Part shown: positions 16,876 through 19,780 of the stretch, in pieces
Layout: each line of letters starts with the position of its first letter
How positions within the stretch are numbered: the stretch's first letter is position 1
Source of the DNA: Methanobacteriota archaeon
GTDB taxonomy: Archaea; Thermoplasmatota; Poseidoniia; Poseidoniales; Poseidoniaceae
DNA: 47,322 nt
Direction: 5' to 3'
Assembly (NCBI GenBank): GCA_002710015.1
Contig: PAOW01000009.1
Coordinates: 1-47,322, forward strand
Program-made: the position numbers and the translations under genes
The notes under the pieces: generated by a model
Database searches by the model: none
The model's input: the letters and a program-made list of their open reading frames with translations, nothing else
Told to the model about the DNA's origin: nothing

Positions 16876-17052
16876 ATGCCGAAGGTTAGTCTGGATATCC
16901 CCAACCAGTTACTCGAAGACATGAGAATACATGTAGGTGATAATGGTAAATTCGTATCTCTTGCTGATGCGATTCGAACAGCTTGCAGAAAAATGCTAGA
17001 CCAATTGGATGAGATAGATGCAAGGCACGGAAGAATTGAGGTGAAAAGATGA
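16876..17052 (+). CDS. Ribbon-helix-helix (CopG/Arc-type) transcriptional regulator
   Basis: 58 residues, too short to stand out in a plain frame search but well supported. It starts MPKVSLDIPNQLLEDM (beta strand plus helix 1) and continues FVSLADAIRTACRKMLDQLDE (helix 2), the standard RHH plan in which the strand Lys/Ser residues contact DNA. Its TGA overlaps the ATG of folE (ATGA), so it is translationally coupled to the preQ0 genes and is the first gene of that operon. It probably regulates them through the repeats at 16820-16863; the effector is unknown. Confidence 0.85.
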   Translation: MPKVSLDIPNQLLEDMRIHVGDNGKFVSLADAIRTACRKMLDQLDEIDARHGRIEVKR

Positions 17053-17618
17053 CTTCTAGAGATGATGCAGAAAAAGCGGTAGAAACTTTGCTGAACTACA
17101 TAGAAGGCTCCGCAACAAGAGAGGGACTACTCGACACTCCAAAGCGAGTTATAGATTCGTATGAAGAGATATTCGCAGGATATGGAATGGACGCCAACGA
17201 AGTTCTTTCTTCAACCTTTAACGCAGAGGGATACGATGGAATTGTGTTACTGCGTGACATAGAATTTCACTCTACTTGTGAACACCACTTGCAGCCATTC
17301 AAAGGCAGAGCACATGTTGCATACATTCCAGTCAAAAGAATTGTAGGAATAAGCAAACTTGCGAGAATCGTTGATCTACATGCAAGACGATTACAAAATC
17401 AAGAAAGGATAACCAGCAGTGTTGCAGATGACTTAGAAGAAAATATCAAACCGCTTGGATGTGCTGTTATATTGGAAGCCTCACATGGTTGCATGCAGTG
17501 TAGGGGTGTTGCAAAACAAAATGCTGTAATGACAACAAGTGCAATGCGAGGAGTATTTTTTGACAAGAGTGAAGCACGTAATGAACTGATGCAACTAATA
17601 CAATCACCGAAACTGTAG
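17049..17618 (+). CDS. folE: GTP cyclohydrolase I (type IA)
   Basis: 189 residues. Converts GTP to 7,8-dihydroneopterin triphosphate, the entry step to preQ0. Zinc ligands are visible: Cys77 and His80 in STCEHHLQPF, and Cys148 in SHGCMQCRGV. Other family motifs: HVAYIPVKRIVGISKLARIVD and the closing TTSAMRGVF. This is the bacterial/eukaryal FolE form. Most archaea use the unrelated-looking GCYH-IB/MptA enzyme, so the gene is likely of bacterial origin. It is coupled to the RHH gene by a 4-base overlap and followed by queE after 15 bases. Confidence 0.96.
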   Translation: MTSRDDAEKAVETLLNYIEGSATREGLLDTPKRVIDSYEEIFAGYGMDANEVLSSTFNAEGYDGIVLLRDIEFHSTCEHHLQPFKGRAHVAYIPVKRIVGISKLARIVDLHARRLQNQERITSSVADDLEENIKPLGCAVILEASHGCMQCRGVAKQNAVMTTSAMRGVFFDKSEARNELMQLIQSPKL

Positions 17619-17633
17619 TGTAGGGATGATTAA

Positions 17634-18230
17634 ATGACAAAGTATCCGGTAGTAGAGATATTTCACTCAGTCCAGGGCGAAGCATTTCATGCTGGAATTC
17701 CACACGTTTTTGTTAGGTTCGGAAATTGTAATTTGCGATGTGAATGGTGTGATACTGACTTTCTAAAGTACACAGAGATGACATTAGAGACTATCATTTC
17801 AAAAGTATTAGCGTTTAATTGCAAACGAGTTATATTTACAGGTGGAGAGCCGTGCCTTCAAGATCTAGACACAATCGGGAAAGAGCTGAAAAAACATGAT
17901 ATCTATCTATCCGTAGAAACTAACGGAACAATACCTGTCCCAGATGTCATCGATTGGATTTGTGTTTCTCCTAAAGATCAACTATATCCGAACTTAAACA
18001 TCAAACAAAGAAGTGGTAACGAACTAAAAGTGGTTTATTGCGGACAGGATTTGTCCTTGTATGATGACATTAAACAGGGATTTGAACATCACTTCCTACA
18101 GCCATGCTTCATGGAGAACGAAACTGTGGAACAAAACGGAAAAAACTTTGCGAAAGTTGAACAGATTGTCAAAAGTTCACCAGGTTGGAGACTATCTCTA
18201 CAAACTCACAAATGGATGGGTGTCGACTAA
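17634..18230 (+). CDS. queE: 7-carboxy-7-deazaguanine synthase (radical SAM)
   Basis: 198 residues. The radical-SAM cysteines Cys32, Cys36 and Cys39 lie in CNLRCEWCD; the opening VEIFHSVQGEA and FTGGEP are typical of QueE. It rearranges 6-carboxy-5,6,7,8-tetrahydropterin to 7-carboxy-7-deazaguanine. The length is at the short end of the family, lacking long insertions. A possible Shine-Dalgarno (TAGGGATG) lies before ATG 17634. Its TAA shares a base with the ATG of the queC-msrB gene. Confidence 0.95.
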   Translation: MTKYPVVEIFHSVQGEAFHAGIPHVFVRFGNCNLRCEWCDTDFLKYTEMTLETIISKVLAFNCKRVIFTGGEPCLQDLDTIGKELKKHDIYLSVETNGTIPVPDVIDWICVSPKDQLYPNLNIKQRSGNELKVVYCGQDLSLYDDIKQGFEHHFLQPCFMENETVEQNGKNFAKVEQIVKSSPGWRLSLQTHKWMGVD

Positions 18231-19318
18231 TGAGAGCTATAATGTCATTAAGCGGAGGCATGGATTCAACATGTCTGTTATTGCGTTTGATTCAAAGTGG
18301 TTACAAAGTTACGTGCATATCTTATGAATATGGACAAAAGCACAGGATTGAGATTGATAAAGCAAAAGCTAATATTCAATATTTACTCGAAAAAGGCTTC
18401 GAGGTAGACCACAAGATAATTGATTTGACATCTGCAATGAGCACATTCAAATCTGCGCTAACCAATGCTGAAACAGATGTTCCAGAAGGATTCTATGAAA
18501 AGGACCAGATGAAATCAACTTTTGTGCCGAATCGGAATGCAATATTTTCTTCAATAATATACGGCTACGCACTTTCAGTCGCAATTGAGGAGAATACGAA
18601 TGTTAAAATCGCACTTGGAGTTCATTCTGGAGACCACGCAATTTACCCAGATTGCAGACCTGAGTTTTACGATGCACTTGAAAACGCATTCGCAGTAGGT
18701 AACTGGGATTCTGACAAAATTTCATTTGAATTGCCTTACATAAACGGCGACAAGGAAACTATATTGCGTGATGCGATTGATAACTGCAGGAAGCTCAATC
18801 TCGATTTCGATTCTGTTCTTGGTAATACACTTACATCATACAATCCCTCTGATTCAGGAATTTCGAGTGGTAAAAGTGGTTCGGATGTTGAACGTATTCT
18901 TGCATTTCATGCAATAGGTCGTAAAGATCCGATAACATACGCGCTTCCTTGGAAAGATGTCCTTGCTAATGCACTTGAGGAGAAACTACGGCACCACGTT
19001 ATGAAAGAAAACGGTACTGAGAGAGCCTTTACAGGAAAATATGACAAACATTTCGAGCCAGGGATTTACAAGTGCGCGGAATGCAATATGACACTGTTTG
19101 AATCAGCCTCTAAATTTGATTCTGGATGTGGCTGGCCTGCTTTCAATAGTGAAGATGAAAATGCAAATATCATCAAACTCGAAGACAGGAGTTATGGAAT
19201 GGTTAGGACTGAAGTTCGATGCTCAGGTTGTGATTCACACTTAGGACATTTATTTCAGGAATTTAGAGGACCAAGGTATTGTATTAATTCAATATGTTTA
19301 GAATTTGAGGGTGATTAA
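18230..19318 (+). CDS. queC: Fusion protein: QueC (7-cyano-7-deazaguanine synthase) plus methionine sulfoxide reductase B
   Basis: 362 residues. Residues 1 to about 235 are QueC: PP-loop SGGMDST (8-14), SYEYGQKHRIE, FVPNRNAIF and YPDCRPEFYDA, with the C-terminal AFHAIGRKDP. QueC makes preQ0 from carboxydeazaguanine, ATP and ammonia. The zinc cluster normally formed by C-Y...C-G-x-C-x-S-C is gone: the equivalent positions are Ser203, Ser213, Ser216 and Asp219. From about 255 a complete MsrB follows: NGTERAFTGKY, zinc pairs Cys282/285 and Cys331/334, KFDSGCGWPAF with Cys300, and the catalytic-type Cys351 in RYCINS. There is no stop or frameshift between the parts. The ATG overlaps the queE TAA; a longer frame from 18185 is rejected. 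queD starts directly after the stop. MsrB reduces methionine-R-sulfoxide; a link to deazaguanine synthesis is unknown. Confidence 0.95.
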   Translation: MRAIMSLSGGMDSTCLLLRLIQSGYKVTCISYEYGQKHRIEIDKAKANIQYLLEKGFEVDHKIIDLTSAMSTFKSALTNAETDVPEGFYEKDQMKSTFVPNRNAIFSSIIYGYALSVAIEENTNVKIALGVHSGDHAIYPDCRPEFYDALENAFAVGNWDSDKISFELPYINGDKETILRDAIDNCRKLNLDFDSVLGNTLTSYNPSDSGISSGKSGSDVERILAFHAIGRKDPITYALPWKDVLANALEEKLRHHVMKENGTERAFTGKYDKHFEPGIYKCAECNMTLFESASKFDSGCGWPAFNSEDENANIIKLEDRSYGMVRTEVRCSGCDSHLGHLFQEFRGPRYCINSICLEFEGD

Positions 19319-19780
19319 ATGACTAAGTTTTTTTCAGTAAAAAAATACGGACACGAAAGAGGATTATCGGCAGCATTTAGACAGTGGAGAGCGGAAAGCC
19401 ACTGCCGTTTTTTACACGGATATTCATTGGAGTTTGAGTTTAAGTTCGGAGCCATACGACTAGATGAAAAAAACTGGGTAGTTGATTTTGGAGGACTCAA
19501 AGAATTAGAGGCATGGTTGCGAGAGACATTTGACCACAAAACTCTGGTAGCCTTAGATGACCCAATGATGGAGACATTTCAGAGGTTGGATGCCGACTCA
19601 ATTATCGATTTGGTTGCAGTTGATGGAACTGGTGCAGAGATGTTTGCGAATATGGCATTGGAATTTTCTAGTGAATTAATAGAAAAACAGTATGGCGCTA
19701 GATGCTGGGTTGAGAGTGTAACCGTTCGAGAGCATGGGGCAAACAGCGCCATTGCTGAAAGATCAAAACTCTCAGATTAA
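19319..19780 (+). CDS. queD: QueD-like 6-carboxytetrahydropterin synthase, variant type
   Basis: 153 residues, PTPS/QueD fold by its position and by GLSAAFRQWRAESHCRFLHG, VVDFGGLKELEAWL, FDHKTLVALDDP and VTVREHGANSA. Canonical QueD binds zinc through the His of SAAH and both His of C-x-x-x-H-G-H. Here the first is Phe20 and the last is Tyr35, leaving His33, His28 and Cys29 nearby. From memory, the FRQWRAESHC type also occurs in marine alphaproteobacteria, suggesting an exchanged subfamily. Expected reaction: dihydroneopterin triphosphate to 6-carboxytetrahydropterin. The ATG comes directly after the queC-msrB stop. Confidence 0.88.
   Translation: MTKFFSVKKYGHERGLSAAFRQWRAESHCRFLHGYSLEFEFKFGAIRLDEKNWVVDFGGLKELEAWLRETFDHKTLVALDDPMMETFQRLDADSIIDLVAVDGTGAEMFANMALEFSSELIEKQYGARCWVESVTVREHGANSAIAERSKLSD

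Follow-up and report, generated by a model that had tools for sequence, protein, structure and literature searches.

Four consecutive plus-strand genes of a Poseidoniales archaeon, folE, queE, a queC-msrB fusion and queD, raise the question of whether a QueD that has kept one of its three standard-position zinc histidines can still be a working enzyme, and, if it can, what has become of its metal site. The genes lie in a stretch of 47,322 nucleotides (contig PAOW01000009.1 of assembly GCA_002710015.1), analysed as a whole and called the window here, which belongs to a genome of 1.70 Mb that is 81.8% complete. The four genes are arranged as follows:

17049 to 17618, plus strand: folE, GTP cyclohydrolase I of type IA (Pfam GTP_cyclohydroI 1.1e-66; NCBIfam folE above cut-off)
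17634 to 18230, plus strand: queE (NCBIfam QueE as best match at 141.5 bits, below the curated cut-off of 240; Pfam Radical_SAM above cut-off; place in the operon)
18185 to 19318, plus strand: queC-msrB fusion, its QueC lacking the zinc cysteines (Pfam QueC 4e-41 over 17-243; SelR 9e-41 over 269-375)
19319 to 19780, plus strand: queD of phage type, phrog_2389 (ORF translation, Pfam, PHROG profile and genome-wide PTPS search)

The queC-msrB frame opens at a TTG at 18185, with an ATG near 18230 as the more probable start codon.

By its sequence, the 153-residue product of queD is a member of a phage and bacterial family of QueD-like proteins that is also present in some Poseidoniales (MGII). Pfam PF01242 (PTPS) matched it at 61 bits against a gathering cut-off of 22.4, and the QueD-like profile phrog_2389 matched it over nearly its full length (E 2.3e-40, profile positions 5-151 of 158). 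The FRQ...SHC...HGY signature is common to the window protein and to phages Erebus, R7M, Pan1, RHEph04, HD01 and Iggy, in which the gene has pathway neighbours as it does here; the window copy differs in being archaeal, in being the only PTPS found in its genome and in standing beside a queC-msrB fusion. The family is already known in phages as QueD-like, and what the present analysis adds is the ligand pattern described below and the place in Poseidoniales operons. No description of the His12/His28 signature of that pattern was met in the literature searched, which covered listings and passages of text without the main COG0720 paper (PMC3262898).

The AlphaFold2 model, built from 48 sequences with a mean pLDDT of 94.3, has the PTPS/QueD fold of solved structures (Foldseek and VIA). 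It superposes best on WS1659 of Wolinella succinogenes (3jyg; Z 16.8, rmsd 1.7 over 140 residues), a protein uncharacterized according to its entry, 24% identical to the window QueD and with HGH kept in the aligned stretch; E. coli QueD (4ntk) gave Z 14.2 and rmsd 1.6 over 115 residues. The best profile match among solved structures was QueD2 of Acinetobacter baumannii (7v0f; 2.5e-9), likewise a PTPS, which differs in keeping HGH and in being described as the product of an additional gene that accompanies queD; the window gene was found without another copy. The residues on which the argument turns are these:

19352 to 19354, plus strand: His12, proposed substitute metal ligand, in a 3-residue insertion (row counts and a break of strand 1 in the model)
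19376 to 19378, plus strand: Phe20, on the His of AAH in E. coli QueD (4ntm profile alignment)
19400 to 19402, plus strand: His28, proposed substitute metal ligand (association of His28 with Phe20)
19403 to 19405, plus strand: Cys29, cysteine of the CxxxHG motif (HG spacing as in E. coli QueD; Cys in 210 of 210 aligned rows)
19415 to 19423, plus strand: His33-Gly34-Tyr35 in place of His-Gly-His (4ntm profile alignment, with a local alignment agreeing for 33 and 35)
19532 to 19537, plus strand: Asp72-His73 pair (kept in 209 of the 209 rows that reach these columns)
19730 to 19735, plus strand: Glu138-His139 (His139 invariant in the window type)

The sequence-only reading had put Phe20, His33 and Tyr35 at the canonical zinc-ligand positions of QueD, and both the codons and the 4ntm alignment agree with it: His33 (19415-19417) and Tyr35 (19421-19423) align to the first and second histidines of HGH, respectively, while Phe20 holds the position of the first zinc histidine of E. 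coli QueD (His16). It had also named His28 and Cys29, though not His12, as possible substitutes. His28 proved to be a good candidate, being present in all 128 distinct rows with Phe20 versus 15 of the 57 distinct rows with His20; Cys29 was ruled out, as it aligns with the catalytic cysteine of CxxxHGH. With canonical QueD of the PTPS-I type (E. coli, 4ntk/4ntm) the window protein shares the fold, the pathway and the catalytic residues of PTPS-I, all of which are present: Cys29, which we take to be the catalytic cysteine, Asp72-His73, presumably the catalytic pair, and Glu138, presumed to bind the pterin. It differs in having CxxxHGY for CxxxHGH, a phenylalanine for the first zinc histidine, His28, and the 3-residue insertion with His12.

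These replacements recur throughout the relatives. The protein has matches in 284 stretches of viral contigs, and in an alignment with the best 80 of these (82 rows, the window protein being present twice) His12, Phe20, His28, Cys29, His33, Tyr35, Asp72, His73, Glu107, Glu138 and His139 were invariant, which rules out a degenerate or chance queD. At E 1e-5, matches were found in 128 of 50,697 phage records and 12 of 72,556 plasmid records, not all of them of the window type, and a named genome collection held 20 loci with relatives. The seven nearest named relatives, at 69 to 74% identity, come from marine archaeal MAGs or single cells, and among 292 genomes of the phylum, matches below E 1e-60 were confined to eight of the window's order, its own included. 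The group is called Poseidoniales here, or Poseidoniia where a genome of the same class is counted in.

Could a protein of this kind catalyse something other than the QueD reaction? It might belong to another COG0720 subfamily or carry out a new pterin reaction, as its score of 36.9 against the NCBIfam QueD equivalog TIGR03367 (curated cut-off 89.25) could be taken to mean; moreover, CxxxHGH, given as the PTPS-I motif in PMC5041015, is absent, the window protein reading CRFLHGY. Such a change of activity is quite improbable, however, given the genomic context with folE, queE and queC. The gene is the only PTPS match in its 81.8% complete genome, and it stands in a complete preQ0 operon; in relatives, the other genes of this operon are found with canonical QueD. 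Among 61 genomes (its own and 60 relatives, the genomes being incomplete), 53 had exactly one PTPS and eight had none. The 53 include 11 with the window type, one with a third type (G030) and 39 read as canonical, one of these being partial at a contig end; two more (G039 and G056) were called canonical by score alone. If the completeness figures are taken as independent chances, a second PTPS would have gone unseen in every one of the 11 window-type genomes with a probability of about 2e-8.

Furthermore, the order queE-queC(-msrB)-queD is unchanged by the QueD type wherever the locus reaches, with folE upstream in the longer loci (over 1 kb away in one of them, L141). TGT, the user of preQ0, was found in 56 of the 61 genomes, including all ten window-type genomes other than the window's own. 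Neither TGT nor QueF was found in the window's own genome; because 56 of 61 genomes have TGT, the incompleteness of that genome is the simpler reading for TGT, and loss of the pathway's last step was set aside. Since it is the sole PTPS found, in a conserved operon, with TGT in the relatives, the window-type enzyme is most likely a working QueD of the archaeosine pathway. Annotation by the published CxxxHGH motif would overlook this clade.

The remaining question concerns the metal. An alignment of 210 rows with near copies (186 distinct), in which 7 of 13 bacterial loci were included, resolved several states at positions 12, 20, 28, 33 and 35. The window type has H/F/H/H/Y (112 rows), canonical QueD has -/H/K/H/H (39 rows) and the type of phages phi3:1 and phiST has -/F/H/H/Y (39 rows). 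Less frequent were -/H/H/H/Y (15 rows) and -/H/K/H/Y (2 rows), and single rows showed -/H/E/H/Y, -/F/H/H/H (phage JY38) and -/Y/N/H/Y (phage X1). His12 occurs in all 112 rows that have the 3-residue insertion, and the insertion is in none of the 98 other aligned rows; the stretch from 6 to 20 is 15 residues long throughout the window type (112 rows), 13 in X1 and 12 in the remaining 97 rows. In the AlphaFold2 model of the window type, strand 1 is broken at residues 11-16; in that of a phage-type protein with His20 and His28 it runs unbroken as E2-16, with a local pLDDT of about 65.

From this pattern a model is proposed in which the metal site has been rebuilt and not lost: His33 would stay, the missing first histidine would be replaced by His28 and the missing one of HGH by His12, on the insertion in strand 1, while Cys29, Asp72-His73 and Glu138 would be retained for catalysis. 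The window gene would then encode a functional QueD (6-carboxytetrahydropterin synthase) of a phage-type clade that displaced canonical queD at the last place of folE-queE-queC(-msrB)-queD in some Poseidoniales, where it would supply preQ0 for archaeosine in tRNA. To this reading as a whole, namely a working phage-type QueD that took over the operon position with a metal site rebuilt from His12, His28 and His33, we assign a probability of roughly 0.6. That His28 stands in for the first histidine and His12 for the second is suggested by the row counts; the invariance of these two residues could instead come from shared descent or from contact with the substrate.

A competing explanation is that the zinc site was given up, with Cys29, Asp72-His73 and Glu138, together with other residues such as Tyr35 or His139, working metal-free or with a weakly held metal. 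The phi3:1/phiST relatives, which have Phe20 and Tyr35 and none of His12, His20 and His35, retain two of the five candidate histidines, His28 and His33, and thereby qualify the case for ligand exchange; phage X1 keeps His33 only, and His139 does not vary among window-type rows. This explanation is nevertheless rather unlikely for the window type, in which His12 and His28 are both present in 112 of 112 rows, and the tracking of His28 with the loss of His20 is as ligand exchange predicts. A strict rule of "always three histidines" was also considered, and it fails because the related phage group lacks His12 too; X1 likewise breaks it. In the X1 protein itself (Xanthomonas phage, L164:292-798), which has Tyr20, Asn28 and Tyr35, the sequence possibly represents a metal-free or inactive form.

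With the rebuilt site as the preferred reading, a wider proposal can be put forward for the QueD superfamily, held with a little less than even confidence: the catalytic metal site would have been relocated around a fixed His33, with at least four sets of further ligands taken from among positions 12, 20, 28 and 35, the catalytic residues being kept and the versions being interchangeable at one operon position. The proposed ligand sets are H20/H33/H35 in canonical QueD, H12/H28/H33 in the window type, H20/H28/H33 in the type of phage PA5oct and in two Poseidoniia proteins, and H28/H33/H35 in phage JY38, whose QueD found no relative when used as a scan query. If the metal site has truly moved, these proteins form a natural series of ligand rearrangements round one conserved reaction, which would inform the evolution of metal sites. 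The two Poseidoniia proteins constitute a third QueD type with His20, His28, His33 and Tyr35 and without His12; they occur in genomes G030 and G215 and are encoded at the usual operon position (L139:1857-2306 and L279, the latter being the same gene as in L256).

The neighbouring QueC had been described as cysteine-free, and this is real: TSYNP takes the place of the cysteine motif (aligned to the E. coli sequence). The window QueC keeps SGGxDS, YxQxHxxE, VPxRN and YPDC, and TSYN retains the tyrosine of the zinc region. QueC motifs are listed in PMC13329287, in which this tyrosine is reported to be essential. From the two losses the sequence-only reading had drawn a linked change of metal ligands in QueD and QueC, either adapted to low zinc in the open ocean or acquired with a horizontally moved gene set. 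The linkage did not survive a survey of 58 Poseidoniia loci (39 with canonical, 17 with window-type and 2 with third-type QueD). At the 57 where QueC could be read, the window's included, the canonical zinc motif C(x)8CxxCxxC was absent from every one, the accompanying QueD being canonical at 39, of the window type at 16 and of the third type at 2. Conversely, of 12 bacterial genomes that carry window-type QueD, ten have the cysteine motif in their best QueC, one (G061) lacks it there, and one (G063) gave no QueC over the cut-off; bacterial QueC mostly did not adjoin the window-type QueD in these genomes. Window-type QueD and cysteine-free QueC are not linked traits, because Poseidoniia QueC is cysteine-free whatever the QueD type and 10 of 12 such bacterial genomes have a cysteine QueC; a failure of the two variants to occur together is what the sequence-only reading itself had named as refuting its idea.

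The phages give both combinations. A QueC profile run on 80 viral and 13 bacterial loci found one QueC (L092), and the phages were then read from annotated records. QueC with the cysteine motif lies close to window-type QueD in plasmid pSR3, phage R7M and Bradyrhizobium (L092), and cysteine-free QueC in phages Erebus, Pan1, RHEph04, HD01 and Iggy. As the window QueC is closer to cysteine QueC (best 100 bits) than to the cysteine-free QueC of phages (best 81 bits), the cysteine-free forms of archaea and phages may have separate origins. In five phages and one alphaproteobacterial genome (L158, L152, L155, L157, L161, L227), SHT(A/S)YDG.YPPT was observed in place of the QueC zinc motif.

Low-zinc adaptation, in which an open-ocean archaeon would have lost the zinc sites of QueD and QueC jointly, has points in its favour: both losses are real in the window operon, and a phage contig (L013) carries, beside a window-type QueD, a folE2-type GTP cyclohydrolase, which we take to be zinc-independent. 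Nonetheless, the FolE of this operon is still of type IA, and its MsrB domain keeps CxxC...CxxC, presumably a zinc-binding motif; 2 of the 61 genomes yielded a gene of the FUR family, to which Zur belongs, and neither is among the 11 of the window type. Carriers of window-type QueD also include phages from lakes and wetlands and a plasmid of a soil Aminobacter. A zinc requirement of FolE1, QueD, QueC and TGT, and a zinc-regulated paralogue, queD2, predicted under Zur in some bacteria, are described in PMC9508795, and the paralogue could be taken as a precedent for such adaptation. The window gene does not resemble it: no second QueD copy was found in the 61 incomplete genomes (53 with one PTPS, eight with none), nor any FUR/Zur-family regulator in the 11 incomplete window-type genomes, bearing in mind that archaea may use other regulators. 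Contradicted by the QueC co-occurrence, the zinc-type FolE and the range of carriers, low-zinc adaptation can be given hardly any weight, and the zinc-limitation story is to be dropped for this operon.

As to the moved gene set, the part concerning queD held up and the part concerning QueC did not. A QueD tree of 87 rows was built by a quick method with SH-aLRT support and no bootstrap, from 17 window-type and 2 third-type Poseidoniia proteins, 4 of the 39 canonical ones, 15 annotated phage or plasmid proteins, 7 of 13 bacterial ones, 32 of the best 80 viral relatives and 10 of 50 further viral ones. The 17 Poseidoniales window-type proteins formed one clade (SH-aLRT 99) amid phage and bacterial proteins, with eight marine viral contigs as its sister (SH-aLRT 94); thus queD itself looks horizontally acquired. 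Eight changes among the three QueD types are required on a QueC tree (57 rows), and on a FolE+QueE+QueC tree, limited to those loci in which all three genes are present (25 of 58), the window-type group was monophyletic in 0% of 200 bootstrap trees; AU tests against one window-type clade were borderline (p 0.053 and 0.056). The best reading of these trees is that queD alone was replaced within a resident operon, the rest of which seems not to have moved. On this evidence, an archaeal operon can have one of its pathway genes displaced by a phage-type counterpart at the corresponding place.

An archaeal virus was considered as the donor and is not indicated, because the one sister contig examined, L013, looks T4-type: its genes include SbcC/SbcD-like subunits, a peptide deformylase and a 2OG oxygenase, as in a T4-type myophage. 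On this marine T4-like phage contig the folE2-type gene (PF02649) lies at L013:5452-6387, directly after the window-type QueD. Window-type queD adjoins queE, queC or folE in phages Erebus, R7M, RHEph04, HD01 and Iggy and on plasmid pSR3. The QueD of R7M is of the window type, and this phage is predicted to make the dG+ DNA modification (PMC8265664). Complementation of E. coli by the QueD of phage 9g (PMC6884629) was rejected as support for the window type, the 9g protein being canonical.

Two further arrangements were observed in passing. At the 57 Poseidoniia loci with QueC, MsrB was fused to it in 32, encoded by a separate neighbouring msrB in 18 and not seen in 7; this places a methionine sulfoxide reductase within a preQ0 operon, and the main text of a paper on archaeal fusion proteins (PMC11237513) makes no mention of QueC or MsrB. 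Lastly, QueD-like genes on a Streptomyces plasmid (L156:3869-4426) and a Rhizobium rhizogenes plasmid (L159:3941-4447) lie near SDR/MFS and condensation-domain genes, and perhaps serve 7-deazaguanine-derived natural products.
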